64,000 nucleotides of DNA, taken from the NCBI GenBank assembly GCA_902826695.1, contig CADEFU010000001.1, positions 297,764 through 361,763 of the forward strand. The letters run 5' to 3'. A program made the translations under genes and the position numbers. This document shows, one piece after another, positions 1 to 19,185 of the stretch (positions are counted from its first letter, which is position 1; the number at the start of each line of letters is the position of its first letter). The notes under the pieces were generated by a model that saw only the letters and a list, made by a program, of their open reading frames with translations, was not told the DNA's origin and made no database searches. Source of the stretch: an uncultured Alphaproteobacteria bacterium. Lineage in GTDB: Bacteria > Pseudomonadota > Alphaproteobacteria > Micropepsales > Micropepsaceae.

Positions 1-514
1 CTTCCAGGCTCTTGTCGAAGCCATCCAGGCGGGAAGTGAGCACGGCCATTGCGAAGGGCGTGCAGAGCATGATGTGGCCGATCGTGATCGTGAAGAGACC
101 GAGCGGAATGAAGAGCGTGTTGACCAGGATCAGAAGCGCGATGCCCAGCATGATCTCCGGGATGAAGAGCGGCATCATGATGAGACCGGTGACGACGTTC
201 TGGCCCGGCATGCGGTAGCGGGTCACCGCTTTCGCGCCTAGGAGGCCCAGAATTGTCGCCGTAACCGAGGCTATGGCGCCGACCTGGAGGCTCGCGGTAA
301 GGGCGCGCAGCATGTCTTGGTCGGCGAAGGCTTGCTCGTACCACTTGGTGGTGAAGCCTTTCAGCGGAAACGTGACGAAGATCGAGTCGTTGAAAGAGAA
401 GACTGGAAGGAACAGAACGGGGACGTAAAGAAACAGCAGGTAGGCGAGCGCAAAGATGGCGAGAAAGCCACCGGGGTCGCCCATACGTTTGGCTGCGCGG
501 GTCGGCTTGGTCAT
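1..514 (-). CDS. potC: ABC transporter permease, PotC/PotI type (partial, 3' end outside window)
   Basis: This is the N-terminal 171 residues of a binding-protein-dependent inner-membrane permease; the stop lies beyond base 1. The product starts MTKPTRAAKRMG, has a first membrane helix (LAIFALAYLLFLYVPVLFL), then the PotC-like stretch FSFNDSIFVTFPLKGFTTKW, and further helices. That stretch is typical of the second permease of spermidine/putrescine importers, which pairs with PotB, the PotA ATPase and PotD. Its ATG overlaps the stop of the upstream permease (ATGA at 511-514), so the two are translationally coupled. The substrate is inferred from family only; opine or other polyamine-like solutes are possible. 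Confidence 0.85.
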   Translation of the reverse strand, partial: MTKPTRAAKRMGDPGGFLAIFALAYLLFLYVPVLFLPVFSFNDSIFVTFPLKGFTTKWYEQAFADQDMLRALTASLQVGAIASVTATILGLLGAKAVTRYRMPGQNVVTGLIMMPLFIPEIMLGIALLILVNTLFIPLGLFTITIGHIMLCTPFAMAVLTSRLDGFDKSLE

Positions 515-1428
515 CGGATCTGCCTCACGGCGAGCTGCATGGCGGTCACGAAGAGCATGACAAGGATGCCGACAGCGGCCATCGACGACAGCGCGAGCGC
601 CGCGCCCAGCGGCCAATCGCCGACCTTTAAGAACAGCACTTGGATCGAGTAGGCGATCATCTGGCCGGTCGGGCCGCCGACGAGCTGCGGCGTGACGTAG
701 TCGCCGGTGGTGGGCACGAAAATGAGAAGGGATGCGCCGATCACGCCGGGGAGCGAGAGCGGGAATGTCACGCGCCAAAACCTTGCCCAAGCGCCGTCGC
801 CGAGGTCGGCCGCCGCCTCAAGGAGTGTGCGGTCGATCTTTTCGAGCGAGACGTAGATCGGCAGGATCGCGAAGGCCGCGTAGGCGTGGGCGAGCGTGAT
901 GACGACGGCGGTTTGGTTGTAGAGCAGGAACTCCAGCGGCTCTTGGATCACGCCCAACGTCATCAATCCGGAGTTGATGACGCCGTTGAACCCCAAGATC
1001 ACTTTCCACGCGAAGGCGCGCAGCAGGTAGCTGGTCCAGAACGGAATGGTGAGGAGGATGAGCCAGACGAACTTGTACTTCTTCACGCCGAACGCGACGT
1101 AGTACGCCATGGGGTAGGCGAGGCCGACGGTCACGAGTGTCACGAGGCTCGACGTGCCGATCGTGCGCCAGAAGATGTCGTGGTAGCTCTGCTTGCCGAG
1201 GACGTCGTTGTAGCGGTCGGTGGTGAACGTCGTGTCCACCTGCAGGCCGACTTGGGTCCAAAACGAATAGACGACGAGCAGGATCAAGGGGGCCGCCAGC
1301 AGGATCACCATTGTGATCATGACCGGCGAGAGCAACACGTAGCCTTTCGCGGCATCGGAGCGCAGATAGAATGCGCGGAGCCGGTCGAAGAACCCGGGTG
1401 CGGTGCTGGGCGCAGAACTAGCCGTCAA
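511..1428 (-). CDS. potB: ABC transporter permease, PotB/PotH type
   Basis: A 305-residue inner-membrane permease with six predicted helices. The N-terminal segment (SDAAKGYVLLSPVMITMVIL) and the cytoplasmic EAA-type loop (LLEAAADLGDGAWARFWRVT), which contacts the ATPase, are characteristic of PotB/PotH. It should form a heterodimer with the downstream PotC-like protein and import polyamines into the cytoplasm. The start is TTG at 1428, supported by GGGGAG four bases upstream. The ATPase and binding-protein genes are not in the window, and what lies directly upstream is a regulator remnant, so they may sit beyond base 1. The polyamine link fits speE/speD 4 kb away but is inference. Confidence 0.9.
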   Translation of the reverse strand: MTASSAPSTAPGFFDRLRAFYLRSDAAKGYVLLSPVMITMVILLAAPLILLVVYSFWTQVGLQVDTTFTTDRYNDVLGKQSYHDIFWRTIGTSSLVTLVTVGLAYPMAYYVAFGVKKYKFVWLILLTIPFWTSYLLRAFAWKVILGFNGVINSGLMTLGVIQEPLEFLLYNQTAVVITLAHAYAAFAILPIYVSLEKIDRTLLEAAADLGDGAWARFWRVTFPLSLPGVIGASLLIFVPTTGDYVTPQLVGGPTGQMIAYSIQVLFLKVGDWPLGAALALSSMAAVGILVMLFVTAMQLAVRQIR

Positions 1429-5003: not shown

Positions 5004-5867
5004 TTACCCTTTCACCAACCGTTCGATCCACGCCGGGAGCGCGAAGGCGGCGCGGTGGACGGCGGGGGTGTAGTAGTCCGTCTTCAGCCGAGCCGCGTTG
5101 AACGCAGCGTCCAAACCTTGCCACTTGGCCGGGTCGCCAAGGATCGCGTCGTTCGAAACCCAGGTGAGCGCCATGAAGCCGCCGATGTAGCTCGGCACCA
5201 CCGCGAGGTAGACGCCGCAATAGCGGAACGTGCGCTGCATTTGCTTCAGCGTGTCGACCAGTTCCTCCGGTTGGAAAAAGGGCACTCCGTTCTGAAATAC
5301 GGCGAAGCCGCCGGGGGCGAGCGCCTTGGCGATGCGCTCATAGAACGTGTCACCGAACAGCACTTCGGCCGGGCCCACGGGGTCGGGGCGGTCGGCGATG
5401 ATAAGGTCGAAGCGGCCGTGGCTCGACTTGTCCGCCAGGAACACGAACGCATCTTCGATTTGGATCTTGAGGCGCGGGTCGGCGAAGGCGGCAGCGTTTA
5501 TCTCGCTCAAGTGCTGCCGCGACAAATCGACCACCCGCTCGTCGATTTCGACGTTGAAAACGGTTTTGACGCCGCGGTGCTTAAGCGCTTCTTCGGCGAT
5601 GGCGATGTCGCCGCCGCCGACGATCATGACCTCTTTCACCTGCCCATGTTCGAGCATCGGAACGTGCGTCAGCATCTCGGAGTAACCGCACTCGTCGCGC
5701 GTCGTCAGCTGGACGATGTCGTCGAGCACGAGCACGCGCCCGTTGCGCTTCGTGTCGAAGATCTTGATGTCCTGAAAACGGCTCTTTTCCGACACTATCG
5801 GCTTGCCTTCGAGCTCGATCGTCTGAGCGAAGCCGGGGTGAAGTTTCTCCAGAAAAGTGTTCGTCAT
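5004..5867 (-). CDS. speE: spermidine synthase-type aminopropyltransferase
   Basis: A 287-residue polyamine aminopropyltransferase that moves the aminopropyl group of decarboxylated S-adenosylmethionine onto putrescine or a related diamine. The N-terminal beta domain is followed by a Rossmann-like methyltransferase fold with MIVGGGDIAIAEEAL (residues 81-95), EIDE 107-110, EDA 138-140 and the gate/catalytic loop ADRPDPVGPAE (catalytic Asp159). The usual GGGDGG is GGGDIA here. The start is the ATG at 5867, preceded by AAGGAG; the in-frame start at 5936 lacks such support. It is divergent from the AdoMet decarboxylase gene that makes its co-substrate. Product chain length (spermidine, norspermidine) cannot be told. 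Confidence 0.95.
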   Translation of the reverse strand: MTNTFLEKLHPGFAQTIELEGKPIVSEKSRFQDIKIFDTKRNGRVLVLDDIVQLTTRDECGYSEMLTHVPMLEHGQVKEVMIVGGGDIAIAEEALKHRGVKTVFNVEIDERVVDLSRQHLSEINAAAFADPRLKIQIEDAFVFLADKSSHGRFDLIIADRPDPVGPAEVLFGDTFYERIAKALAPGGFAVFQNGVPFFQPEELVDTLKQMQRTFRYCGVYLAVVPSYIGGFMALTWVSNDAILGDPAKWQGLDAAFNAARLKTDYYTPAVHRAAFALPAWIERLVKG

Positions 5868-6204
5868 CGGCGTCGGCTCCTTAAGGTGTCGAAGGGTGAA
5901 GAGAGCGTCGAAGAGAGGCGCGCGCGGCGCGCTCAAGGTGCTCGAAAGGCGCGCTCATATAGTGCCGCCGCGATGCGCGCGCAACGTCGCACGTTTTGCT
6001 TCGCGCCGTGCGGATGCATCAGCTAAACAAAAAGTTAGCCACGCGGGTCCAAAAAATCTTGCATGGGGGCCGCGCATTCCTATATTTCGCCCCCTCCGCA
6101 GTTTCGGGTGTGAATCACCAAGAGGCGGGCTTTGGCGGCGTGAGTTCCACGCCACTTGGTCACCCGCAAGGTGCATCTGTTTTTTTGTTTCGGAGAGGTG
6201 CCAG
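5868..6204. promoter_or_regulatory. divergent speE/speD promoter region with structured speD leader
   Basis: A 337-base gap between the divergent polyamine genes, with no gene in it. On the plus strand it contains two nested structures. GGGGGC at 6065-6070 pairs with GCCCCC at 6089-6094. A long imperfect hairpin spans 6105-6166: CGGGTG/CACCCG outer stem, ACCAAG/CTTGGT middle stem, and GGCGTG/CACGCC inner stem with loop AGTTC. The second ends 38 bases before the speD start, just before a T-rich run and the ribosome site GGAGAGG. This looks like a regulatory leader, perhaps responding to polyamines or AdoMet. I could not match it to a named riboswitch. Confidence 0.5.
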
Positions 6205-6690
6205 ATGGCTCTTCCTGCACGCAAAAGAGCGGCTGTCGAAGTAACGCAGTTCCCCGTGAACCGCGCCAGAACGAAGTCCGTTCCGGCTCCAATTCCACTC
6301 GTGGAAGCGGACGAAGACCGTAAAGACTATTTTATCACCCGCAACGGCGTGACGTTTGCGGGCAGCCACTTGATCCTCGACCTGTGGGACGCCCACGATC
6401 TGGACGATGAAGCCAAGATCGAAAAGGCGCTCAAGGACGCGGTGACGGCTGCCGGCGCCACGCTTCTGCACATCCACCTGCACAAGTTCGAGCCGAACGG
6501 CGGCGTGTCGGGCGTGGCGGTTCTCTCCGAGAGCCACATCTCCGTGCACACCTGGCCGGAGAAGGGCTTTGCCGCCTTCGACGTGTTCATGTGCGGTGCG
6601 GCTCAGCCGACGAAGACGATCGCCGTGCTCGAGGCGGCGTTTCGCCCGAAGCGCGTGGTTGTCGGCGAGCACAAGCGCGGGATCGTGTAA
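6205..6690 (+). CDS. speD: S-adenosylmethionine decarboxylase proenzyme
   Basis: A 161-residue bacterial-type AdoMet decarboxylase, a pyruvoyl enzyme that makes the aminopropyl donor for SpeE. The self-cleavage site is LSESHISVHTWPE: cleavage before Ser110 would produce the pyruvoyl group, and His/Cys (FMCGAA) processing residues are present. Compared with the usual 120-130 residues, it carries about 40 extra N-terminal residues before the conserved start of the fold (GSHLILDLWDAH). Codons 2-10 of this extension are repeated exactly in intergenic DNA 1.4 kb away. The start is ATG at 6205 with GGAGAGG upstream. A strong terminator follows. Confidence 0.95.
   Translation: MALPARKRAAVEVTQFPVNRARTKSVPAPIPLVEADEDRKDYFITRNGVTFAGSHLILDLWDAHDLDDEAKIEKALKDAVTAAGATLLHIHLHKFEPNGGVSGVAVLSESHISVHTWPEKGFAAFDVFMCGAAQPTKTIAVLEAAFRPKRVVVGEHKRGIV
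6208..6233 (+). repeat. 26-bp direct repeat, copy 1 (inside speD)
   Basis: Bases 6208-6233 are identical to 7604-7629. The unit contains a hairpin, GCTCTT ... AAGAGC, with an 11-base spacer. Here it encodes residues 2-10 of SpeD, in the non-conserved N-terminal extension. Confidence 0.85.
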
Positions 6691-6721
6691 GCGACCTGCA
6701 GCGGTGGAGACGCCTTAAGAG

Positions 6722-6750
6722 CCGCCCGGTGATGAGCCGGGCGGTTTTTT
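6722..6750 (+). terminator. Rho-independent terminator after speD
   Basis: CCGCCCGG and CCGGGCGG form a perfect 8-bp stem around a seven-base loop (TGATGAG), followed immediately by six T residues. It is 31 bases after the speD stop. Confidence 0.9.
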
Positions 6751-6907
6751 GTTGCCGAATCGGCAAGAGTTTTCTGCGAGTTTGCCGGAGTGGGTGTCTT
6801 AGCCTTGCTGCGCTCCAGTCTTGGCGACCTTGATCTTCCGTGGAAATCGGAATTTCCATTGGAGTGAAAGTGAGCGTTACCGGCTCCGTGAGCCAAAGGG
6901 TCGTACC

Positions 6908-7477
6908 GTGGCATCAGATTTGTTTGTTGGGCGCTTGGACGAGTTTGACGCGGTTCAAGTCGAGAGTGTCGCGAAGCGGCTCGGCATCGGTGTTAGTGCC
7001 GCTTGGCGGGATTGTGCGAACGGCATCGCCTCCATCTCGGTGATGAATGTCGCGTCTCTAAGCCTCTTCAATCAGTACGCTGCAGGCTTGGAGGGACTTG
7101 CAGGTGCCGATGCGATGGGCCGGACGAGGTTTTTGAACCTGCCGTGGTGGCTCGCGAGCTTGTGGTTGCCGCTTTCGTTCGAACCGCTTCGCGAGCCGCT
7201 GTCCCGCGATGACCCTGTGTTCGTCGGGAGTTGCCAGCAGCTACTTGCGGAACTCACAGAGATTCGGCGGCTCTCTACGCTTGATCTCGGAAGCGTTCCT
7301 GATGAGTATCATGTCATGCGCGCGAACTACGCCGAATGGTGGAAGGGCTTGCTCGATCCCAACCATGCGCAGGAACCGTATTCGGAGGCAGATACTATCC
7401 GGTGGATTTGGCGCGGCCTCCACGACGGCGCGCAGCTGGCGGTGCAGCACGACGCGCCCCTTCAACTCGCAGCGTGA
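6908..7477 (+). CDS. protein of unknown function
   Basis: I do not recognise this protein. From the GTG at 6908 it has 189 residues (VASDLFVGRLDEFDAVQ...); the frame is open upstream to an ATG at 6821, but the ribosome-like AAAGGG and the loss of protein-like composition upstream favour 6908. It is soluble, rich in Trp/Leu in the second half (FLNLPWWLASLWLPLSF), without a signal peptide or a clear motif. The hydrophobic tryptophan-rich patch is not long enough to be convincing as a membrane helix. It is flanked by the speD terminator and a 180-base non-coding stretch and appears monocistronic. Confidence 0.6.
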   Translation: MASDLFVGRLDEFDAVQVESVAKRLGIGVSAAWRDCANGIASISVMNVASLSLFNQYAAGLEGLAGADAMGRTRFLNLPWWLASLWLPLSFEPLREPLSRDDPVFVGSCQQLLAELTEIRRLSTLDLGSVPDEYHVMRANYAEWWKGLLDPNHAQEPYSEADTIRWIWRGLHDGAQLAVQHDAPLQLAA

Positions 7478-7603
7478 CCAGTGGCTTGATTTTACAAGTT
7501 GCGCGCCAGCGAATCTCTCTGGGGTGACCACGGGAGTATCCTCTCGAAGACAATCTCGGCGAATGGGTCATTGCGTGCCAGTCAAACCCACTTAGGGAAA
7601 ATC

Positions 7604-7629
7604 GCTCTTCCTGCACGCAAAAGAGCGGC
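7604..7629 (+). repeat. 26-bp direct repeat, copy 2 (intergenic)
   Basis: Exact copy of the speD-internal 26-mer at 6208-6233, here in the non-coding stretch 7478-7658 downstream of the unknown gene and convergent with the LuxR-type gene. It carries the same GCTCTT/AAGAGC hairpin arms. Confidence 0.85.
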
Positions 7630-7658
7630 GAGCGCCGGCCGAGTCACAATCTCTAAAG

Positions 7659-8414
7659 CTATGCGTCGAGCGCCACGGGTGGAAGCAGCCTCAACACTTT
7701 CTGTATGAGTTCGCCTTGCCGGGTGGTTTCGGTTTTGGCGAGGAGTTTGTGCAGATGCGACCGTGCCGTGGAGACGGCGATCCCTAAGTCGGCGGCTGCG
7801 GCTTCGATCGACTGGCCGCGCAGTAGCGGGATGAGGACGTTCACCTCGCGCCGTGTGAAGCCGAAGGCTTGCATCAACGCTTGATCGATGGCCGGGCTTT
7901 TCTTTTCGCGAAGGTTGACGATGACCGCAAATGTTCCGTCCGCGCGTACCGGCACGAGCGCTGCGATCAGCGGACCCGACGGCGCTTGCAGCGCAAATAG
8001 TGCGGGCCGGCCCTCGGCCTTTGCCAGTGCCGCCCGCAGGGCGGTGTGTCCGGTCGGGCCACAAGGGGCCAGCATGCCATCGCGCACGACAAAGTCGCCG
8101 CGCGCGACCAGATGTTCTGCAGCGGCGTTGCACAGCGTCACGCGCGTATTCGCTTCGACGACGAACACGGCCGCCGCGAGGGCATCGATGGCGGTGACCA
8201 AGGCATCGCGCTCGGCGTGCTGTCTGCCCACGTTATGAGGCCCGTTCTCAGCGTTGACATCGAAAGCGGTGGCCAGCGCATTGGAACTTGCCGGCCGGGG
8301 CGTTGGGAAAGCGGGACTTTTGTTCGCGAAACGGTCCGCGGATCCGGCGTTTACCGTTTGCGCAAACATGCCGGTCAGGGGCTCAGAAAGGGCCGATTTA
8401 TGGGCGACTTTCAC
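7659..8414 (-). CDS. LuxR-family transcriptional regulator with PAS-like sensor region
   Basis: A 251-residue regulator. The C-terminal LuxR-type helix-turn-helix is clear: FGFTRREVNVLIPLLRG, then IEAAAADLGIAVSTARSHLH, then LLAKTETTRQGELIQKVL. The centre (ALAAAVFVVEANTRVTLCNA onwards) resembles a PAS fold, so it may bind a small ligand. The first 60 residues are low-complexity. The start is GTG at 8414 with AAGGGG upstream. It is divergent from a TetR-type gene, sharing 112 bases that contain a perfect inverted repeat, so the two may be cross-regulated. No phosphoacceptor receiver domain is present. Confidence 0.85.
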   Translation of the reverse strand: MKVAHKSALSEPLTGMFAQTVNAGSADRFANKSPAFPTPRPASSNALATAFDVNAENGPHNVGRQHAERDALVTAIDALAAAVFVVEANTRVTLCNAAAEHLVARGDFVVRDGMLAPCGPTGHTALRAALAKAEGRPALFALQAPSGPLIAALVPVRADGTFAVIVNLREKKSPAIDQALMQAFGFTRREVNVLIPLLRGQSIEAAAADLGIAVSTARSHLHKLLAKTETTRQGELIQKVLRLLPPVALDA

Positions 8415-8459
8415 GGCATTTCCCCTTATGTTTGGCCACGAACGAGGCGGTCTAGATAT

Positions 8460-8482
8460 CCGTCCCGACCGGGACGGGACGG
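8460..8482. promoter_or_regulatory. palindromic operator candidate between LuxR- and TetR-type genes
   Basis: A perfect inverted repeat, CCGTCCCG at 8460-8467 and CGGGACGG at 8475-8482, with a seven-base centre; a shorter palindrome, GTCCCG-AC-CGGGAC, is nested in it. It lies 45 bases before the TetR-type start. TetR proteins usually bind such sites and repress their own gene, so this is the likely operator. Confidence 0.6.
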
Positions 8483-8526
8483 TATTAGATAGCCCAACAT
8501 AGGCGGCGGATCAACGGGCGTAGAAA

Positions 8527-9138
8527 ATGGGAATTTCCGAGGATCGCAAGAAGCAGAGGCGCAAGGAGATCCTCAAGGCCGCAGCCGACCTGTTTGCGAA
8601 GAATGGCTTTGAGGGAACGAGCTTCAACGAGATCGCGGTCAAGGCCCGCGCATCGAAGGAGACGCTCTACGCTTGGTTCGGCAGCAAGACCGAGATTTTG
8701 CATGCGCTGCTCAGCGAACGCGCGGACACGTTGCGCGGTACCGTCGAAGCCGAGGCCAAAAGTGGTGAGCCGGAAGAGGTGCTGTTCGTGTTCGCGCGCG
8801 AGGTTTTGCGGGAGATGACGAAGAAAACGTCGCTTCGCCTGCTCAACGCCGCGATCACTGCCGCGCCGAAGGACGGGGATCTGCGCGACTTGGTGGCCGA
8901 CCGCATCGATCTGTCGCTGCTTGCGGCCCGGCTTTCGCTTTGGCGCGCGATGGGTCTGATGGCGTTTGAGGATGCAAACCGCACCGCCATGGTGTTCGGC
9001 GCGATGGTGCAAGGCGGCTATCCGGTGCAGCTGACGGCGGGGTTGATCGAGACCATCCCGGACGAAGAAATCGAGACGCATGCGCGTTTTGTGACGAAGA
9101 TGTTCTTGAAGGCCGTCGAGAGACCGGCGCGCAAGTAG
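8527..9138 (+). CDS. TetR-family transcriptional regulator
   Basis: A 203-residue TetR/AcrR-type repressor. The N-terminal DNA-binding domain is typical: RRKEILKAAADLFAKNGFEG, then TSFNEIAVKARASKETLYAW, then FGSKTEIL. The C-terminal helical ligand-binding half is variable and gives no effector. The gene is divergent from the LuxR-type regulator. No efflux pump or enzyme is adjacent, so its targets besides its own operator are unknown. A run of C residues at 9162-9170 and G residues at 9184-9188 after the stop could pair as a weak terminator. Confidence 0.93.
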   Translation: MGISEDRKKQRRKEILKAAADLFAKNGFEGTSFNEIAVKARASKETLYAWFGSKTEILHALLSERADTLRGTVEAEAKSGEPEEVLFVFAREVLREMTKKTSLRLLNAAITAAPKDGDLRDLVADRIDLSLLAARLSLWRAMGLMAFEDANRTAMVFGAMVQGGYPVQLTAGLIETIPDEEIETHARFVTKMFLKAVERPARK

Positions 9139-9267
9139 CGGGCCCTGCCTCCATTGACGAGCCCCCCCCCAGCGAGCCGTCTAGGGGGAGCACCTCAGAA
9201 TTGGCCGCGCAATATGTGGCAGGATCGCCTCATGCGGCGGGTGCCCGGATGATATAGTCTGGCCGCT

Positions 9268-9678
9268 ATGTACGCGTCGTTGAGGACACGCAGATTCTGG
9301 TCGTTGCAGGCCTTCGTCCTGCTGGCCCTGGTTGCGCGCGTATTTGTGCCGCCCGGTTACATGCTCGCTTCGGCGGGTGGTGCCTCTTGGGTCAAAGTCG
9401 TCCTCTGCTCCGCGCACGGTCAGATCGAGGTTTTCGTCGATCCCGTCACGTACGAGATCACCGACAAGCCCGCCTTGCCCGCGCCGAAGCCGAACGAGGA
9501 CCCGCCCTGCGCGTTCGCATCGTTGGCAAAGGCGGCTCCGCCGGCGGCATTTCTTGAAGTCCCAAGCCTACGTGTCGCCGAGGCTGCAGCCCCTGCGTTC
9601 GCTTATCGAGACAATCCCGAACCCAGTCTAGGTGCGCCGCCGCCACCGGCAACGGGACCACCCCACCACCACGCTTAG
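9268..9678 (+). CDS. DUF2946-like exported protein
   Basis: A 136-residue protein with an N-terminal membrane or signal segment (WSLQAFVLLALVARVFVPPG), a hydrophilic body containing LCSAHG and PPCAFASLA, and a Pro-rich tail ending in HHHA. Length, architecture and position next to a copper chaperone fit the DUF2946 group, small membrane-anchored Cys/His proteins often found in copper and heavy-metal loci. The function is unknown; metal binding by Cys and His is inference. It is the first gene of a probable 9.3-11.9 kb copper-type cluster. Confidence 0.6.
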   Translation: MYASLRTRRFWSLQAFVLLALVARVFVPPGYMLASAGGASWVKVVLCSAHGQIEVFVDPVTYEITDKPALPAPKPNEDPPCAFASLAKAAPPAAFLEVPSLRVAEAAAPAFAYRDNPEPSLGAPPPPATGPPHHHA

Positions 9679-9874
9679 TCGAGACCAGCGCCGCGGTGTG
9701 TCCGCACGCGCGCCGATTCACGTGACGTGGAGAGTTCATTCTGACCACAGCAATTGAAGTGCGTCTGACGCAGCGTTGCTTTGCTGAAGCAACGCGGTGG
9801 CCGGCGTATTTGAGAACGATGCTTGCCAAGGCGGCGGAACGCCAGGGCTTGGCCCAATTCTGAAGGAACAACCG

Positions 9875-10336
9875 ATGAGATTTCTAACACTGGCATTCGG
9901 CTTCGTCCTGCTGCTCGCAGGCGCAAGCGCGACTTTCGCACACGGCTATCAGAGCGGTGCCGTGAGGGTCGAACATCCTTGGGCTGCGCCTACACCACCC
10001 GGTGCAAGCGTCGGCGCCGCTTACATGACGATCAGGAACACCGGCGATGTGCCGATCCGGCTGACCGGAGCAATCACGCCGGCAGCGGAGCGCGTGGAGT
10101 TGCACGAAATGACGATGGACGGCGGCATCATGCGCATGCGTCCGCTGACCCAAGGCATCGTCGTTCCGCCGGGCGGTGCGTTCCGGTTTGCGCCAGGCGG
10201 CGCGCATTTGATGTTGATTGGCCTCAGGAAGGCGCTGGCGCTGGAAGAGTTCATCGACCTGCGCCTCGTCTTTGAAGGCGGTCACACGGTCGACGTCGAA
10301 CTCTATGTCGAAGCCGCAGCCTCGCACGCGCATTAA
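9875..10336 (+). CDS. PCuAC-type periplasmic copper chaperone (DUF461)
   Basis: A 153-residue exported protein: signal peptide (1-22, cleavage near TFA-HG), then the cupredoxin-like PCuAC fold. The copper-binding Met/His set is visible: Met51 (AYMTIRN), His77 (VELHEMTMDGG), Met86/Met88, and His111/Met113 (GGAHLML). The family carries Cu(I) to the CuA and CuB sites of cytochrome oxidase in the periplasm. The start is the ATG at 9875, preceded by AAGGA. An outer-membrane protein follows 46 bases downstream and is probably co-transcribed. Confidence 0.92.
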   Translation: MRFLTLAFGFVLLLAGASATFAHGYQSGAVRVEHPWAAPTPPGASVGAAYMTIRNTGDVPIRLTGAITPAAERVELHEMTMDGGIMRMRPLTQGIVVPPGGAFRFAPGGAHLMLIGLRKALALEEFIDLRLVFEGGHTVDVELYVEAAASHAH

Positions 10337-10382
10337 CGCAATCGAAACATCAATAACAAACACTGGAATTTGGAGATTCTTC

Positions 10383-11417
10383 ATGCAGATCAAGAGCACA
10401 GCCGCAGCTGTCGCGGCGTTCGCCGCGCTAGCCGTCGCGCCCGCCTATGCCCACCACGCGGGCGCAGTCGGCAACGCTTCGACCAGCGGCCCGATCAACA
10501 CGCTTTCAGCCTCGACGCTGCCCGAAGGGGCGTTCGTCGCAGGCGTCCAATTCGAACAGACGAACCTCGACACGCTTAGCGATACGGTGCTCGAAGACGC
10601 TGCCGTTGACGCGTTTCTCGCGGCCGAAGACGAGCATTTCCACTCGGTCGAAACGTTACGAACGATCGCGCTCACGCTGGGTTACGGCGTCACCGACGAT
10701 CTGACCGTTTCGCTGCGCGTTCCGTTCGTCGCCCGCGACAACATCCGCGAAGGCCATGCGCATGACATCCCGCCCGTCACCGGCGAAGTTCATCGCTTGG
10801 GCGATGCGACGGGCATCGGCGACATCACGCTGCTCGGCCAGTTGCGCGTTTTGAAGGACGACGGGCTGGAGTTTGCGGCACTCTTCGGCGTCGAGATGCC
10901 GACGGGCGAGACCGGCGAGCACAATGCCGAAGACGGCGAGCTGTTCGATACAGAGTTCCAGCCGGGGTCCGATTCCTGGGACTTCGTCTTCGGCGCCGCT
11001 GCAACGAAGCGCGTGCAACGTTGGTCGTTCGATGCGAGCGCGCTCTACACGATTGCGGGCGATGCTTCGAACGACGTGAACCTCGGCGACCGCTTCAACT
11101 ACGGGCTTGCCGCAACCTACCGCGTGATCGGGATGGAGGCGCACGAGCACGCGCCCGGAACGCACGCGCATTCCGACGGCAATGCGCTCGACCTCGTGCT
11201 CGAACTGAATGGCGAGTGGCACGCCAAACAAGAGGAGCCGGGCGAAATCGATCCGAACTCCGGCGGCCACGTTCTCTTTCTGTCGCCGGGCGCCCGGTAC
11301 ACGATAGGCACGGTCTCGGCCTTCGCGTCGATCGGTGTCCCGATTGCCGAGCATCACAACGGCCTGCAGGACGAGCCGGCCATACGCTTCGAAACCGGTG
11401 TTGCGCTGAAGTTCTAG
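10383..11417 (+). CDS. outer-membrane beta-barrel protein, transporter-like
   Basis: A 344-residue exported protein: signal peptide (1-23, ending AYA-HHAG), then alternating amphipathic beta strands typical of a barrel, ending in VALKF with a C-terminal phenylalanine as required for outer-membrane assembly. Acidic and His-rich loops (EDEHFHS, EGHAHDIPP, EAHEHAPGTHAHSDG) could bind metal. The pattern resembles the family annotated as phenol-degradation meta-pathway or generic outer-membrane transporters. Its neighbours, a copper chaperone and DUF2946-like proteins, suggest copper handling at the outer membrane. The start is ATG at 10383 with GGAG upstream. Confidence 0.75.
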   Translation: MQIKSTAAAVAAFAALAVAPAYAHHAGAVGNASTSGPINTLSASTLPEGAFVAGVQFEQTNLDTLSDTVLEDAAVDAFLAAEDEHFHSVETLRTIALTLGYGVTDDLTVSLRVPFVARDNIREGHAHDIPPVTGEVHRLGDATGIGDITLLGQLRVLKDDGLEFAALFGVEMPTGETGEHNAEDGELFDTEFQPGSDSWDFVFGAAATKRVQRWSFDASALYTIAGDASNDVNLGDRFNYGLAATYRVIGMEAHEHAPGTHAHSDGNALDLVLELNGEWHAKQEEPGEIDPNSGGHVLFLSPGARYTIGTVSAFASIGVPIAEHHNGLQDEPAIRFETGVALKF

Positions 11418-11439
11418 GCCCGCAAATCCGGCCGCGGGC

Positions 11440-11453
11440 TTGACCCAGATCAA
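11440..11453. promoter_or_regulatory. FNR/FixK-type box upstream of the second DUF2946-like gene
   Basis: TTGACCCAGATCAA differs by one base from the consensus TTGAT-N4-ATCAA for FNR, ANR and FixK. It lies 34 bases before the GTG start of the gene at 11488, so the site could place that gene under oxygen control, although the short distance would put it close to the -35/-10 region. Confidence 0.55.
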
Positions 11454-11487
11454 GGCTTCGCCCGCACCAATCTCCGACGCTTGAGGG

Positions 11488-11850
11488 GTGAACGAGAGCC
11501 CGACGACCACCGACGCCATCGCCCACGAGCTTCGCCTCTGGCGAGCGGCGCTTTTGTGCGCCGTGCTGGCGCTGCAGTTGTTGTTTCCGGCGGCAGTGCT
11601 GAGGGCTGAAGCCTTGGCGCGCGAACTTTGTTCGACGACGGGAAGTGCCAGCAACAACGCCGCGAACCACCGCATTCACATGCAGCAATGTGCGCACTGC
11701 ACGCTTTGTGGCTGCGAGAGGGTGCCGGCGCCCGCGGTTCGCGACGTTGTGCCGGCGACGGCGCCGCGCGCGCTGCGTATCGCCGCGGCGACAACGCTTC
11801 CGACGCCGCGGATCCGAGCAGCCGCTCCCCGAGGGCCGCCGCTTCTCTAA
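11488..11850 (+). CDS. DUF2946-like Cys-rich membrane protein
   Basis: A 120-residue protein with a single N-terminal hydrophobic segment (AALLCAVLALQLLFPAAVL), a central metal-site candidate HMQQCAHCTLCGCERV, and a Pro/Arg-rich tail. The Cys cluster after one helix is the pattern of DUF2946-type proteins. The GTG start at 11488 follows TTGAGGG. It closes the copper-type cluster and has a near-consensus FNR box directly upstream. Metal binding is inferred from the four clustered cysteines and two histidines; no biochemical role is known to me. Confidence 0.6.
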   Translation: MNESPTTTDAIAHELRLWRAALLCAVLALQLLFPAAVLRAEALARELCSTTGSASNNAANHRIHMQQCAHCTLCGCERVPAPAVRDVVPATAPRALRIAAATTLPTPRIRAAAPRGPPLL

Positions 11851-12447
11851 GTGGGCGGGGATCGCCGAGACGAAGGGCGGCTTGAGCTGACCGGATGGCG
11901 CGGGGTGCGGGCAGCTCGCCTGCGACGGACTGCATCGTTGTGTTATCGCGATATGTTCCTTACTTATTCTCTCGAGCGTCTTACGCCGCCGTGGCGGTAG
12001 GTCGGCTCGTTCCCGCATGTCGGCGACGTGCGCGGCTGCGACTTGAAAACTGCATCTTGATACAGACGCTGTGCGCTCGGAGCGTGCCGCTTAGCGTGCG
12101 CGTTTGGCTGCGCGGTAGCGTCGGCGGCTTTCGCGTAGGCTTTTCCTGCACGGTCTCTTGTATGGGCGGATTGGCCGCCTAACGCTCAGCAAACGGATTT
12201 CTAACGGATTCCTAACGGATAAAGCCGCAGATATCCGCCGATCTAACGCTTCTAACGGATAAGATTTTGCTTCTCGCATCTCCCGCTATGGGCTGTGGTT
12301 CGTCCCCAGCTTTCGCCGCTTTGCCGCCGTATCGGCCAGGTGGCTTCGAATTAAGGATGACGGCATCTTTCGCGCGGGCTCGCTTCAGCTTTAGTGTCAA
12401 TCTTCGAACCCATCCCTCAGGGTGCCCCTTAATGAGCCGAGACTTGC
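11851..12447. other. gene-free stretch with repeat array
   Basis: About 600 bases between the copper-type cluster and the flavoprotein cassette with no convincing gene. It holds an 11-bp-period repeat array (12179-12262), an inverted repeat (CGGATA at 12216-12221 with TATCCG at 12232-12237) and, from about 12285 to 12400, sequence whose minus-strand reading (SKPPGRYGGKAAKAGDEP) resembles the spurious small proteins called over intergenic repeats in this class. The flavoprotein promoter must lie at its right end. Confidence 0.6.
12179..12262 (+). repeat. array of 11-bp CTAACGGAT-type repeats
   Basis: Four units in perfect 11-bp register: CTAACGCTCAG (12179), CAAACGGATTT (12190), CTAACGGATTC (12201) and CTAACGGATAA (12212). 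Two more follow: CTAACGCTT (12243) and CTAACGGATAA (12252). The 11-bp period is about one helical turn, so all units face the same side of the DNA, as in iterons or cooperative regulator sites. Confidence 0.65.
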
Positions 12448-13911
12448 ATGGCGGTTGACCGGCTTGATGCCGTCGTCATCGGCGCGAGCGTTGAAGGGCT
12501 CGTGGCGGCGGCGGCGCTCGCGACGGCGGGCAAGGCGGTGGCTGTCGTGGAGCGACGCGCCGAGAATGCGCCGTTGGGCGAGGGGCATGACGCCGTCGTC
12601 GATCTCAAAGTCGTGCGGGAGCTGGATCTGACCGCGCATGGCATGCGGTTCGCCGCGGCGCCGCCCTTGATCGGGGTCGCAGGCGAGCGGGCGCTTGTTC
12701 TTTGGCCGGAGCTGCACGCGGCGCAGGCGAGTGTCGCTTCCGTGTCGCCGCGCGACGCAGAGGCGCTGGAAGCGTTCTATGCACGGGTGGTGCGGGCGGC
12801 CGCGGGCGGTGCGGAGGCAGCAGGCGCCGCGGCTTGGCTGACGTCGGGCGAGAGCGAGCCCTCCGACGCGATGATTTTTAGGGTGAGCTCCCTGGCCCGG
12901 CTGCTCGACGAGGCGTTCGACAGCGAGCTCTTGAAGGGGCTTCTGGCGCAGAGTGCGATCATGGGCACGGGCGCGGCTCCGCATGCGCCGGCGTCCGGGC
13001 AGCTGCTGACTCGAACCTCGATGCTGGCGCAGGTGGTTCCCTCGGCCGGCCACCGGTTCGTGGCGGGCGGCGAGCGGCGGCTGCGGCAGGCGCTGCTGGC
13101 GCTGCTCAAGTTCTACAACAACGCCGACGTCGCGTTCGGGCTGAACGTGCGCGAGATCGCGGTCGATCGCGACGCGGTGCAGGGCGTGGTGCTGACCGAC
13201 GGCAACCTGCTGCGGGCGCCGCAAGTAATCTCGACGCTTTCGTACGAGCGCAGCAAGGAGATGCTCTTGGGCCTCAGGCGCCCTCTGTCGCCGTACCTGC
13301 CGCCGAAAGCCAGCGTGGAGCCGGCGCTGGTCAAGCTGACGGTCGGCACGCTTCCGAAGTTGCCCGGCGTGGATCCGGCGACGTTGGCGTCCGGAGCCAT
13401 CGTGCGGCTTCAGCCGTCGCTGACGCGGCTGGCGGCGGCGCATGGCGCGTTTCGCGCGCTGATGGCCCCAAGCGAGCCCTGCGTGGAGTTGCGCGTGGTG
13501 CCGCTGCAGCTGCGCGAGGGCAAGGCGCGCTGGGACGTGTTCGTGTCGATGCCCTATGTGCCCGTGACGACGGCTGAGGGGCCGTGGACAGGCGCGCGGC
13601 GTGAGAAGCTGCGTTCGATTGCGGTGCGCGCAATCGATGCGATGGTGCCGGGCTTCGGCGCTTCGATCGAGGCGGCGGAGATTTTGCGACCGGCGGAGTC
13701 GGAGACCTTGATGGATCCGCGCGGGGCGCAGCTGTTGGCGGCGCGAGCGCTTGTCGATCAGACCGCGGTGCCGGAGGTCGGCGTTGCTGGCGCGCCAACC
13801 TTGATCAAGGGGCTTACGGTCGTGGAGCCCAGCCTCTATGGCGGGGTTGGCGATGCGGGCTTGATGGCGGCGGCGACCGGATCGCTTTCGAAGGCGCGGG
13901 CCGATGCGTAG
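12448..13911 (+). CDS. PYROXD2/phytoene-dehydrogenase-like FAD oxidoreductase, degenerate dinucleotide site
   Basis: A 487-residue protein of the COG1233 flavoprotein family. The N-terminal Rossmann motif is VVIGASVEGLVAAAALATAG, with Gly-Ala-Ser-Val-Glu-Gly in place of the usual GxGxxG, and the family Gly-Gly-(A/C) segment after the second strand is missing (RRAENAPLGEG). The substrate-domain pattern (TRTSMLAQVVPSAGHRFVAG, then the strand ISTLSY) and the C-terminal VEPSLYGGVGDAGL remain. The changed FAD site suggests a non-catalytic partner. It overlaps the next, canonical flavoprotein gene by 8 bases, so the two are likely a heteromer. Substrate unknown. Confidence 0.8.
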   Translation: MAVDRLDAVVIGASVEGLVAAAALATAGKAVAVVERRAENAPLGEGHDAVVDLKVVRELDLTAHGMRFAAAPPLIGVAGERALVLWPELHAAQASVASVSPRDAEALEAFYARVVRAAAGGAEAAGAAAWLTSGESEPSDAMIFRVSSLARLLDEAFDSELLKGLLAQSAIMGTGAAPHAPASGQLLTRTSMLAQVVPSAGHRFVAGGERRLRQALLALLKFYNNADVAFGLNVREIAVDRDAVQGVVLTDGNLLRAPQVISTLSYERSKEMLLGLRRPLSPYLPPKASVEPALVKLTVGTLPKLPGVDPATLASGAIVRLQPSLTRLAAAHGAFRALMAPSEPCVELRVVPLQLREGKARWDVFVSMPYVPVTTAEGPWTGARREKLRSIAVRAIDAMVPGFGASIEAAEILRPAESETLMDPRGAQLLAARALVDQTAVPEVGVAGAPTLIKGLTVVEPSLYGGVGDAGLMAAATGSLSKARADA

Positions 13912-15469
13912 CGAGGCGGATGTCGTCGTCATCGGCGCGGGGGTGAACGGCCTCGTTTGTGCAGCCTTGCTGGCGCAGGCGAAGCGGCGCGTCGTCGTGC
14001 TCGAAGCGCAAGGGCATGTGGGCGGTGCGTGTACGACGATCGAGCTGGTCGCGGGGCATCGCGTCTCGATGCTGACGCACCTGATCGGGCCGCTCGATGC
14101 GCAGGTGATGAAGGCGCTCCGGCTCAATCGGTTCGGGTTGCAGCTGACGGCGAAACAGATTTCGACAGTGGCGCTGTCTCCCGACGGGCGGCATGTCGTG
14201 ATGGACGGCGACTTGCGGCATACGGCGCAAGCTATCGGCGCCTACTCGCAGAGCGATGCCAAAGCGTGGGCGCACTACGACGCGCGCATGCGCAAGGCGG
14301 CGCAGCAGCTGGAGAAGTGGGTGCAGGGTGCGCCCGGTGCGGGCCTTGAGCCCGCGAAGGGCGGCTTGTTCGGCGGTCGCGCCGCGCAGAAGGGCGGGGC
14401 GGTGCTCGATCCGGAAACGGCGGCGCTGCTCGATGGGTCGATCGCGGAGGTTTTGGACGGCGAGTTCGAGACGCCGGTGATCAAAGGGGCGCTGGCGTTC
14501 GATGCAGTGTTGGGCAGTGCGCTGCCGCCGCGCGCCAAGGGCACGGCGATGCTGGCCGCGATGCGGCGAGCGCTGAACGCGGAGACGACGGAAGGGCTTG
14601 TGCATCCGCAAGGCGGCGCAGGGGCGTTTACGGCGGCGCTCGCGAAATCGGCGGAGGCTTCCGGGGCAGGCGTGCGGCTGAACGCGCGAGTGCGGCATCT
14701 TCTGTTCGACGGTGCGCGTGTTGCGGGCGTCGAGCTTGAGAACGGCGATACGGTGCATGCGCCGGTCGTGGTGTCGAGCCTCGATCCCAAGACGACGTTG
14801 CTATCGCTGGGCGCTGCGCGGCACTTGCCGCTGGGCATGAAGCGGGCGCTTGGCGGGTACCGGATGGAAGGCTCGACCGCGAAGGTGAACCTGGCGCTTT
14901 CGGGGCTACCGTCGTTTAAGGGTATCGACAAGAAGCTGCTGCGCGAGCGGCTGATCGTGTGCACCGGGATCGATCAGCTGGAGCATGCGTTCGCGGCTTA
15001 CGAACAGGGGCAGTTTCCGGCTGAGCCTGCGATGGAGATCACGATCCCCTCCACGCACGACACGACGCTCAGCCACGGGCAGCATGTCTTGTCCGCGCAC
15101 GTTCTCTATGTGCCCAAGACGCTCTCGCAGGGGTCGTGGGAGAAGGGCAAGACCGAGCTGATGTCGCGAGTCGGTGCGGTGCTGCGCCAGTATGCGCCGG
15201 AGCTGCCGGATATGATCCTTGCGGCCGACGTGTTCACGCCCGGCGACATGGAGACGATGGCGGGCGTTGCCGGCGGGCATTGGCATGGCGGCGATCTTTC
15301 GCTCGATCAGATAGGGCCGCTCAGGCCGCTCGCGGGTATGAGCCGGTACGAGACGCCGGTGGGGGGGCTGTTCCTGTGTGGGGCGGGCACCCATCCGTGC
15401 GGCGGCGTGACCGGCATCAACGGGCGCAACGCGTCGCAGGCGGTACTGGCGTCGGAGGCGGGCTCATGA
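13904..15469 (+). CDS. PYROXD2-like FAD-dependent oxidoreductase
   Basis: A 521-residue flavoprotein with a canonical dinucleotide site (VVVIGAGVNGLVCAALLAQA), the second family motif EAQGHVGGACTTIEL, and the C-terminal FAD segment GLFLCGAGTHPCGGVTGING. It belongs to the phytoene-desaturase-like group, whose bacterial members are often of unknown substrate. It overlaps the upstream degenerate paralogue by 8 bases and the downstream GcvT-like gene by an ATGA, giving a tightly coupled three-gene cassette. In combination with a folate-binding partner, oxidation of a C-N bond (amine or N-methyl substrate) is a reasonable inference. Confidence 0.88.
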   Translation: MRSEADVVVIGAGVNGLVCAALLAQAKRRVVVLEAQGHVGGACTTIELVAGHRVSMLTHLIGPLDAQVMKALRLNRFGLQLTAKQISTVALSPDGRHVVMDGDLRHTAQAIGAYSQSDAKAWAHYDARMRKAAQQLEKWVQGAPGAGLEPAKGGLFGGRAAQKGGAVLDPETAALLDGSIAEVLDGEFETPVIKGALAFDAVLGSALPPRAKGTAMLAAMRRALNAETTEGLVHPQGGAGAFTAALAKSAEASGAGVRLNARVRHLLFDGARVAGVELENGDTVHAPVVVSSLDPKTTLLSLGAARHLPLGMKRALGGYRMEGSTAKVNLALSGLPSFKGIDKKLLRERLIVCTGIDQLEHAFAAYEQGQFPAEPAMEITIPSTHDTTLSHGQHVLSAHVLYVPKTLSQGSWEKGKTELMSRVGAVLRQYAPELPDMILAADVFTPGDMETMAGVAGGHWHGGDLSLDQIGPLRPLAGMSRYETPVGGLFLCGAGTHPCGGVTGINGRNASQAVLASEAGS

Positions 15470-16551
15470 GCGCGTTTTCTTCGCGTGCCGCACACCCGAC
15501 GCCGCTGCATGGGCGAACCGCCGATCTGTGCGCGACGAACCAGTGGGTGGAGGAGGCGGGGTTCACGGTGCCCGCGCTCTATTCGTCGCTGAGCGAGGAG
15601 CAGGAGGTGCTGACGTCGCGCGTGGGCATGAGCGATCTTTCGCAGCGTCAGTGTTGGACGGTCGAGGGGCCAGATGCCGCGCTCTATCTCAGCTGGTTTT
15701 CGCTTGCCGATGTGGCGCGGCTTGAAGTCGGACAGACGGTGCGCACGCTTTGGTGCGACGACCGCGGCTATGTGCGTGGCGAGGGTGTGATCGCTCGCTT
15801 CGGCAGGGCGTCGTTCGAGGTGCGTACGCCGGTGCGCGACTATCCCTGGCTCGCCGACGGCGCGCGGGGATTCGATGTAAAGGTTGCGAATGCGACCGGC
15901 TCACGGGCGGTGATCGGGGTGCGTGGTCCGCTGACGGCGTCGCTGCTCGGGATGGCGGGGCTGACTGGAGAGGCTGCGTCGGGTGGTGCTGCTGGGCCGC
16001 GTCCGACGTGGCGGCCGGCGGAGGTGTCGCTGATGCGCGATGCGTCGGGTGAAGGGCTCGAGCTTTGGGCCCACACGGATGATGCGATCGTCGTGTGGGA
16101 GAAGCTATGGCGTGCGGGCGGCGGGCTCGGCGTGGCGGCGGTGGGTGCGATCGCGCTCGAAGCGGTGCGGATCGAGAGCGGCGTGCCACGGGCTGGCGTC
16201 GATTGGTTACCCGCGCAGTTGGCGTCGAGCGCGGGCGATTTGCGCGTGCCGGCGGAGCTCGGCGTTCCCGCCGACTTCGCGCGTCGCTTCAACGGCGGGG
16301 CGGCGTTACAGCGGCGCCAACCGAATGGCAGCCAGATGCTGGTGCAGTTTCAAGCAGAGCAACTGCTAAGCCCCGGTCACGTGACGATGCGCAATGCGGC
16401 GGTGGGGCGGATCACGTCGTCAAGCTGGTCGCAGGCGCGCAGCGCGTCGTTTGCGCTGGGGTGGCTCGATGCGGAGGTCGTCAAGCCCGGCGCGAAGGTG
16501 AGCGCGGCCGGGGGCGTGCAGGCGGAGATACTGCGCGCTGTCTTTGCGTAG
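15466..16551 (+). CDS. GcvT-like (aminomethyltransferase / folate-binding) protein
   Basis: A 361-residue protein of the glycine-cleavage T-protein/YgfZ superfamily. It starts SAFSSRAAHPTPLHGRTADL, and the segment EVLTSRVGMSDLSQRQCWTV resembles the GcvT stretch that reaches the folate pocket, followed by RVPAELGVPADFARRFNG and a C-terminal barrel (GRITSSSWSQARSASFALGW) typical of GcvT. The family transfers one-carbon units to tetrahydrofolate. Its ATG overlaps the stop of the upstream flavoprotein, so it is co-translated with it; a role accepting formaldehyde-level carbon from that oxidase is inferred. No GcvH or GcvP is nearby, so it is not the standard glycine system. Confidence 0.83.
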   Translation: MSAFSSRAAHPTPLHGRTADLCATNQWVEEAGFTVPALYSSLSEEQEVLTSRVGMSDLSQRQCWTVEGPDAALYLSWFSLADVARLEVGQTVRTLWCDDRGYVRGEGVIARFGRASFEVRTPVRDYPWLADGARGFDVKVANATGSRAVIGVRGPLTASLLGMAGLTGEAASGGAAGPRPTWRPAEVSLMRDASGEGLELWAHTDDAIVVWEKLWRAGGGLGVAAVGAIALEAVRIESGVPRAGVDWLPAQLASSAGDLRVPAELGVPADFARRFNGGAALQRRQPNGSQMLVQFQAEQLLSPGHVTMRNAAVGRITSSSWSQARSASFALGWLDAEVVKPGAKVSAAGGVQAEILRAVFA

Positions 16552-17426: not shown

Positions 17427-19028
17427 TCACCCCTTTGCGATCGCCTCAGCGCATCGCCTTGCGGTGATCACGCAGCTTAGGAGGAACGTGCCCTCCAGCG
17501 CGCGTGTGCCGTGACTGCCGCCGCCACCGAAGCCGGCGGCTTCGCCGACGGCGAACAGGTTGGGGATCGGGCGTTCGTTGCTGTCTAGGGTGCGGCAGCG
17601 CAGATCTGTCACAAGGCCGCCGAGCGACTTGCGCGTCACGATGTGTTCGCAGATGGCGATGAGCGGGCCGCCTTTTGGGTCGAGGAGGCGTTGGTCCTTG
17701 GCGAGGCGCATGCGGTCGCCGCGGTACTGGCGCAGGTCGTCGATGCGTTTGCGTTGTTCGTCGGCGGTGCCGGTGTTCAGTGTCAAGTCGAAGCGAGCGA
17801 TTTCGTCGTGCAGCGTCTGCGGGTCGAGCGTCGAGCGGGGCTTGAGCTTGTTCATTTTGGCCGCAAGCTCGGTCGTGGTTTCGGCGGTGACGATGTCGGG
17901 GCAGTTCTTTGTCAGGTCGTCCACGAGCCAGCGGTTGCCGACGAGCATGTCGAGCGCGAAGCGGATGATGCGGCGATCGCGAAGGGCGGGGTTCCAGTCC
18001 GCCCCGCTTGCCGCGAGCTCGGTGAGCGCAATGCGGCGGTTCAGGATTTGCCACGTGTAGCCGTGTGGCGCGGCGGCGACCCGTTGGACCAAGTCGAGCG
18101 TATCGAAGCCTGAGACCAAGGGGGGCATCAGGCGGCGGCCGTTCGCATCGACCCAGAGTGCGGACTTCGGCGGCACCAGGCTGACGCCGTGCTCGGACCA
18201 TTGCGGACGTGGATGGCGGATGCCGGCGGCGTAGTTCCACATGCGGCCAAGATTCGTGATCTTCGCGCCCACCGCCTTCGCCGCATCGAGCGCGCGCCCG
18301 TCGGAACCTGGGTGCGAGCCGAGTAGGATCGTTCCGGGGAGCTTGATGCCTTCGACCGGGGACCAGTGCTTTCTGACTTTGGCGAGGTCGCCGCCGATGC
18401 CGCCAGCGGCGATGACGACGGCATCGGCGCTCGCCTTGAAGTCCTCGCCACCCATCACGATGCCGCCGATGCCGTAGACTTTGCCGTTGTGGACGTCGAT
18501 GCGCTCGACGCGGTGGTGGAAGCACAGCGTCAGCTTCTCGCGCGCGTTCTTGTGCGTGCGTAGAGCCTTGATGAGGCGCGTGATCAGATGACGGCTGGTG
18601 CCCCAAGTGAGGTGGAATCTCGGGACCGAGTTGCCGCGCGTCGTTTGTCCGCGCTCGACCCACATGACGACGGGCATCCAGCGAATGCCGAGTTTCTTCA
18701 GGTAGTCGTGGCCGTCTGGGGTTGCGCGTTCGACGAGATGCTTTGCCCAGATGACGGGCCATACTTCGCCTGGTTGAAATTCGGCGAAGCTTTTCCAGTC
18801 TTCGAACGCCCTTTCGGCGTCGTCGACGATTTTCATGCGGCGTTGTTCGGGGCTGTCGACGAAGAACATGCCGCCGAAGGCCTCAAGCGCTGAGCCGCCG
18901 AATCGATCTTCGCCATCGCGTTCAAAGATGGCAACGCGCTTGCCCGCCTCGAGCAGCTCAAGCGCGGCCACGACGCCAGAGATACCGCCTCCTACGATTG
19001 CCACATCTGCTTGGTAGGTTTTGGTCAT
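17427..19028 (-). CDS. FAD-binding dehydrogenase (fumarate reductase/ketosteroid dehydrogenase-like)
   Basis: A 533-residue flavoprotein of the FAD_binding_2 family. It begins with VAIVGGGISGVVAALELLEA, followed by EDRFGGSALEAFGGMFFV, and ends with the FAD-contacting NLFAVGEAAGFGGGGSHGTR. Members include fumarate reductase flavoproteins and 3-ketosteroid 1-dehydrogenases; this length and the GGGSHGTRALEGTF end are common in the group annotated simply as FAD-binding dehydrogenase. The start is the ATG at 19028. It is cytoplasmic (no signal peptide) and transcribed away from a DUF885 gene. Substrate unknown. Confidence 0.9.
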   Translation of the reverse strand: MTKTYQADVAIVGGGISGVVAALELLEAGKRVAIFERDGEDRFGGSALEAFGGMFFVDSPEQRRMKIVDDAERAFEDWKSFAEFQPGEVWPVIWAKHLVERATPDGHDYLKKLGIRWMPVVMWVERGQTTRGNSVPRFHLTWGTSRHLITRLIKALRTHKNAREKLTLCFHHRVERIDVHNGKVYGIGGIVMGGEDFKASADAVVIAAGGIGGDLAKVRKHWSPVEGIKLPGTILLGSHPGSDGRALDAAKAVGAKITNLGRMWNYAAGIRHPRPQWSEHGVSLVPPKSALWVDANGRRLMPPLVSGFDTLDLVQRVAAAPHGYTWQILNRRIALTELAASGADWNPALRDRRIIRFALDMLVGNRWLVDDLTKNCPDIVTAETTTELAAKMNKLKPRSTLDPQTLHDEIARFDLTLNTGTADEQRKRIDDLRQYRGDRMRLAKDQRLLDPKGGPLIAICEHIVTRKSLGGLVTDLRCRTLDSNERPIPNLFAVGEAAGFGGGGSHGTRALEGTFLLSCVITARRCAEAIAKG

Positions 19029-19185
19029 CTCCGAGTCTCCGTGCGGGGAGAATAGGCACCGGGCGTCGATTTTCTCAACGGCGTAATGACACCCTCGTGA
19101 TGGTGCACGGTCAAGTTGGTGGTTGCCAAAGGCGCGCGATCTTCGCAGTGTGCGCGGGGTATGAAATTCAACGCGTGAGACGCTT

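Follow-up and report, generated by a model that had tools for sequence, protein, structure and literature searches.

The three overlapping genes at positions 12448 to 16551 of the window (the whole stretch of 64,000 nucleotides analysed here) form a real conserved unit, beyond what chance would bring together, and the locus in which they lie is a polyamine biosynthesis locus, since it contains speD and speE genes scoring above curated cut-offs. They encode a flavoprotein homologue (A, also called flavo1), a canonical-looking flavoprotein (B, or flavo2) and a GcvT-like protein (T). Judged from their sequences, the best reading of this cassette is that it represents a derived, polyamine-locus form of a flavo1-flavo2-GcvT system. 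The role that we favor, tentatively and at somewhat less than an even chance, is that of a polyamine-directed flavo-oxidoreductase complex in which catalysis would fall to B, A would be a partner poor in flavin and T would probably have lost its dependence on folate. The features of the window on which this analysis is based are listed in Table 1.

Table 1. Features of the cassette and its surroundings (positions are those of the window).
Feature	Positions	Strand	Length	Remarks
PotC-like permease	2..700	-		Cut by the window edge; similar to PotC homologues of other Spe-linked loci
PotB-like permease, polyamine-type ABC transporter	511..1428	-		BPD_transp_1; common to other Spe-linked loci
speE, spermidine synthase / polyamine aminopropyltransferase	5004..5870	-		NF002010 291 vs cut-off 260; TIGR00417 258 vs cut-off 249.55
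speD, S-adenosylmethionine decarboxylase	6202..6690	+		TIGR03330 135 bits vs cut-off 75.65; PF02675
A (flavo1), PYROXD2/CrtI-like homologue	12448..13911	+	487 aa	Without GG and C-terminal HPxGG
B (flavo2), PYROXD2/CrtI-like flavoprotein	13904..15469	+	521 aa	FAD motifs complete
T, GcvT-like protein	15466..16551	+	361 aa	Glu for catalytic Asp (VRGEGVIAR); deletion of folate loop GYTGEDG
FAD_binding_2 family dehydrogenase	17427..19121	-		Downstream of the cassette; family differs from that of A and B

A first-pass annotation of this DNA had described overlaps of 8 and 4 bases between the three genes, which proved exact in coordinates and frames and were also found in relatives, and had proposed looking for the cassette in other genomes, where the A-B-T order does recur. 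It is present in every member of the genus whose contigs cover the place, and the arrangement flavo1-flavo2-GcvT, in that order, is shared by further genera of this family as well as by many other families of Alphaproteobacteria. To escape circularity, a search in 289 genomes of the class took T rather than the flavoproteins as its starting point; among 20 stand-alone T loci newly fetched, 19 have the flavoprotein pair adjoining T and the other stops at a contig end, two further matches lying outside this count. In a tree of 84 flavoproteins, all flavo1 proteins are found on one side and all flavo2 proteins on another (support 98 and 94), which indicates that the two lines diverged a single time and have stayed together since, behaving as an ancient pair. 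Outside the class, a search of 299 genomes of the phylum with the T profile matched long open frames only (780-1000 aa), which probably represent fusions of the dimethylglycine dehydrogenase type. No description of the cassette was found in the open-access literature, which is weak evidence of novelty. The flavo1-flavo2-GcvT arrangement is an undescribed three-gene system, although amine oxidation by a flavoprotein together with a GcvT-like unit is itself of a known kind.

The polyamine setting was absent from the first-pass annotation. In the window, speE and speD are situated 6-7 kb upstream of A, and two permease genes of polyamine transporter type lie near the window edge, of which the PotC-like fragment has no Pfam match. 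Across the order, a Spe-type T was detected in 36 of 78 genomes; in 35 of these 36 it shares a contig with speD, at a distance within 10 kb, the remaining genome being split over contigs (counts made by hand from two tables). The typical arrangement is speD-flavo1-flavo2-T, in which the usual distance between T and speD corresponds to two flavoprotein genes and, in most genomes, about 0-225 bases separate the end of speD from the flavo1 frame. In the window, as in two near relatives, this gap is filled by 3.3-5.7 kb of other genes; those of the window (6690-12448) include a TetR regulator, a PCu(A)C copper chaperone and other unrelated genes. Since speD is usually still present in genomes without the cassette, the latter is optional but nearly always placed beside speD. 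Spe-linkage was also observed in two other families (L074 and L127). Polyamine-type ABC transporters with their binding proteins and an ECF sigma factor are recurring neighbours of the cassettes, methylthioadenosine (MTA)-salvage genes lie beside them in the window's genus, and a glutamine-synthetase-like gene, which scores under the cut-offs of all specific models, recurs nearby.

With regard to T, its sequence places it in the GcvT fold family (PF01571, GCV_T, 111 bits versus a cut-off of 25.6), in agreement with the earlier description of the third gene as GcvT-like, and it is linked to neither gcvH nor gcvP. The true gcvT and gcvH of the genome are located together on another contig (G000:C3:225130-226606), and T scores only 60.6 against the cut-off of 235.85 on the glycine-cleavage T-protein equivalog TIGR00528, which rules T out as the glycine-cleavage T-protein of this genome. 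As far as can be read from its sequence, T has neither the catalytic Asp nor the folate loop of a folate-dependent aminomethyl or C1 transferase, the former being replaced by Glu and the latter deleted. It keeps a Glu equivalent to E195 of GcvT; the replaced residue corresponds by alignment to D96 of T. maritima, the catalytic Asp of GcvT. With one Glu at the catalytic position and the other retained, T might still use folate. An AlphaFold2 model of T (pLDDT 55, from an alignment of 5 sequences) was too poor for analysis of its fold or pocket.

Comparison of T and its partners across the class revealed two kinds of cassettes. Catabolic cassettes are carried by plasmids of Fuscovulum, Shinella, Rhizobium and Parasedimentitalea and are also present in other members of the class; their neighbours are polyamine-type transporters, aminotransferases, Rieske oxygenases and, in some cases, NADH:flavin oxidoreductases. 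Four of the plasmid cassettes with Rieske oxygenases, aminotransferases and polyamine-type transporters (L086, L087, L088 and L089) look like an uncharacterised folate-coupled amine-demethylation system. GG and HPxG are present in each of the two flavoproteins of all 13 catabolic cassettes, whose T has the folate loop and, at its catalytic position, a carboxylate (9 Asp, 4 Glu). Among the 37 Spe-linked cassettes, HPxG is found in a single flavo1, the folate loop of T has been deleted or replaced in every case, and a catalytic carboxylate is retained in seven (Glu in the window), the residues at this position being Ala, Glu, Gln, Lys, Asp and others. In the T tree, a branch of Spe-linked and ECF-linked proteins (support 99) stands apart from both catabolic T and true GcvT. 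The window's genome has a second cassette of its own (L041, G000:C21:13396-19300), in the order GcvT-flavo-flavo followed by an acyl-CoA ligase, in which the catalytic Asp and folate loop of GcvT are intact and both flavoproteins are near canonical, with FAD motifs.

These patterns bear on the reading offered by the first-pass annotation, according to which an N-methyl amine is oxidised by two different flavoproteins acting as a dimer, and their GcvT-like partner then delivers the one-carbon unit to tetrahydrofolate, as happens in sarcosine or dimethylglycine oxidase. The idea suits the catabolic relatives, whose FAD, catalytic and folate motifs are intact and whose neighbours include Rieske oxygenases, NADH:flavin oxidoreductases and aminotransferases, but it is not supported for the window's cassette, where the folate loop is lost, Asp has become Glu and the conserved neighbours are polyamine genes, with no N-methyl-amine genes recognised nearby. 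Although the best solved relatives of T are the GcvT domains of trimethylamine N-oxide (TMAO) demethylase, followed by GcvT and dimethylglycine dehydrogenase/oxidase, and a carboxylate does persist at its catalytic position, the loss of the folate loop in all Spe-linked T proteins and the variability of the catalytic residue make folate transfer by the window's cassette improbable, if still worth keeping in mind.

B is, on the evidence of its sequence, a member of the flavin amine oxidase / PYROXD2-CrtI superfamily, matching PYROXD2/CrtI flavoproteins over its full length and PF01593 with 60.6 bits (cut-off 19.8). Its earlier description as canonical is correct, as GAGVNG, GGACTT and the C-terminal GAGTHPCGGVTG are all present, and GG and HPxG are kept in the flavo2 proteins of all eight cassettes sampled from the genus. 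PF01593 is the flavin amine oxidase family, which has polyamine oxidases among its members. Among solved structures, B comes closest to phytoene dehydrogenase and gamma-carotene desaturase rather than to polyamine oxidases, and its best NCBIfam match is the carotene ketolase CrtO (206 bits, far under the cut-off of 1000). Such kinship would suit a pair acting in a CrtI/RetSat-like manner on a non-amine, lipid-like substrate, the proximity of speD and speE then reflecting shared regulation. This we consider distinctly unlikely, considering that carotenoid or lipid genes were not recognised as recurring near the cassettes, where polyamine transport genes, speD/speE and glutamine-synthetase-like genes do recur, and that we know of no carotenoid enzyme with a GcvT-like partner.

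A matches PF01593 weakly when taken alone (18.9 bits, under the cut-off of 19.8), yet the profiles of A and B align over their full length (hhalign probability 100, E 2e-53, 476 columns), and A is by this comparison a full-length homologue or paralogue of B in which the FAD motifs GG and HPxGG are missing. The first-pass annotation was right that one partner of the pair is degenerate and that A lacks the GG segment (GGAC), which is absent from all seven flavo1 proteins of the genus that cover this part (eight cassettes sampled); it had missed the lack of the C-terminal HPxGG, also absent from the orthologues of A in the genus wherever covered. The dinucleotide motif GASVEG, described as damaged, does have these letters in A but is not a conserved feature, most orthologues having GAGVEG and the Ser being restricted within the genus to the window and one near relative. 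An AlphaFold2 model of A (pLDDT 42, alignment of 6 sequences) was likewise too poor for fold or pocket analysis.

Loss of FAD motifs does not follow one rule throughout the family of cassettes. The proposition that each cassette has exactly one FAD-competent partner fits the window's genus but fails in a large sister genus, where C-terminal motifs are altered in both flavoproteins and the N-terminal GG is mostly kept. In addition, flavo1 is reduced to a 297-aa remnant in one genome (L112:7242-8135) and another cassette has no flavo2 (L065:2897-5520), indicating that two intact FAD sites are not required. Although these two cases and the long stem branch of A in the flavoprotein tree could suggest a decaying cassette in which A and T are gradually being lost and B alone matters, this is very improbable, as A is an uninterrupted frame of full length in all members of the genus with contig coverage, its dN/dS within the genus is about 0.2-0.5 (dS near saturation) and the short overlaps recur in relatives. 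The same dN/dS values, read as purifying selection with dS near saturation, rule out A as a pseudogene.

Returning to the polyamine-directed complex, gene order and tree pairing suggest that A, B and T probably form one complex. B, which would be its sole clear FAD-binding subunit, may oxidise an amine, most likely a polyamine or derivative that is made or imported via the adjacent speD/speE and polyamine-transporter genes; we infer this substrate from linkage and membership in PF01593 only. A would have kept its fold while losing FAD contacts, and its part may be structural, in docking or in forming a substrate channel. The GcvT-like subunit of sarcosine and dimethylglycine oxidases transfers a one-carbon unit, taken from an iminium, to folate. 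T would stand in the place of this subunit, but, its folate loop being lost, its likely task is to close or shape the active site and not to pass C1 on to folate. Several observations speak against this reading: the closest solved relatives of B are carotenoid desaturases, 5.7 kb of unrelated genes lie between speD and A in the window, and T retains the two Glu residues mentioned above. A more elaborate version, which is possible but rather doubtful, is that a three-subunit flavo-oxidoreductase was recruited from a folate-coupled amine demethylase into a spermidine locus and lost cofactor sites stepwise (the folate site of T and the FAD site of one flavoprotein), its former enzyme subunits now serving as scaffolds while an unusual polyamine is made or consumed.

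Several known systems resemble the cassette in part. Heterotetrameric sarcosine oxidase and dimethylglycine oxidase likewise combine amine oxidation by a flavoprotein with a GcvT-like unit, and the flavin and GcvT-like parts are separate; however, the flavoproteins of the cassette are PYROXD2/CrtI-like rather than DAO-like, T is without the folate loop and the neighbours are polyamine genes. A sarcosine oxidase is ruled out, as T reaches 41 of 1164 bits on the SoxA model TIGR01372, far below the level required. By eye, no SoxB, SoxD or SoxG genes were recognised among the cassette neighbours. TMAO demethylase (9q59) is the solved GcvT-type protein nearest to T (E 1e-19), but it is a single fused protein that keeps a DD motif absent from the window's T, and T obtains 101 of 1100 bits on its model, so that this identity is ruled out as well. 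Compared to the PYROXD2/CrtI family in general, B is paired here with a second paralogue, which has lost FAD motifs, and with a GcvT-like protein. GcvT itself shares the PF01571 fold family with T but differs in the catalytic Asp and folate loop, both altered in T, and in the equivalog score. Bacterial polyamine biosynthesis clusters resemble the locus in having speD and speE together (PMC10407285, PMC11107197); of these papers, the former makes no mention of an oxidoreductase, aminomethyltransferase or FAD, and the latter none of an aminomethyltransferase or FAD.

The interest of the cassette centres on its polyamine role and on the stepwise loss of cofactor sites. If true, the former would mean a so far unknown step in bacterial spermidine metabolism, and the latter would provide an evolutionary series leading from two FAD sites plus a folate site to a single intact FAD site, by which cofactor loss within an enzyme complex becomes open to testing. 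The catabolic relatives, for their part, look like a route by which amine methyl groups reach folate, different in construction from sarcosine oxidase. As for the ECF sigma factor, its gene is found next to T or a few genes off at L053, L055, L074, L077, L117 and L128-L133, and this neighbour accompanies both Spe-linked cassettes and those that are not.
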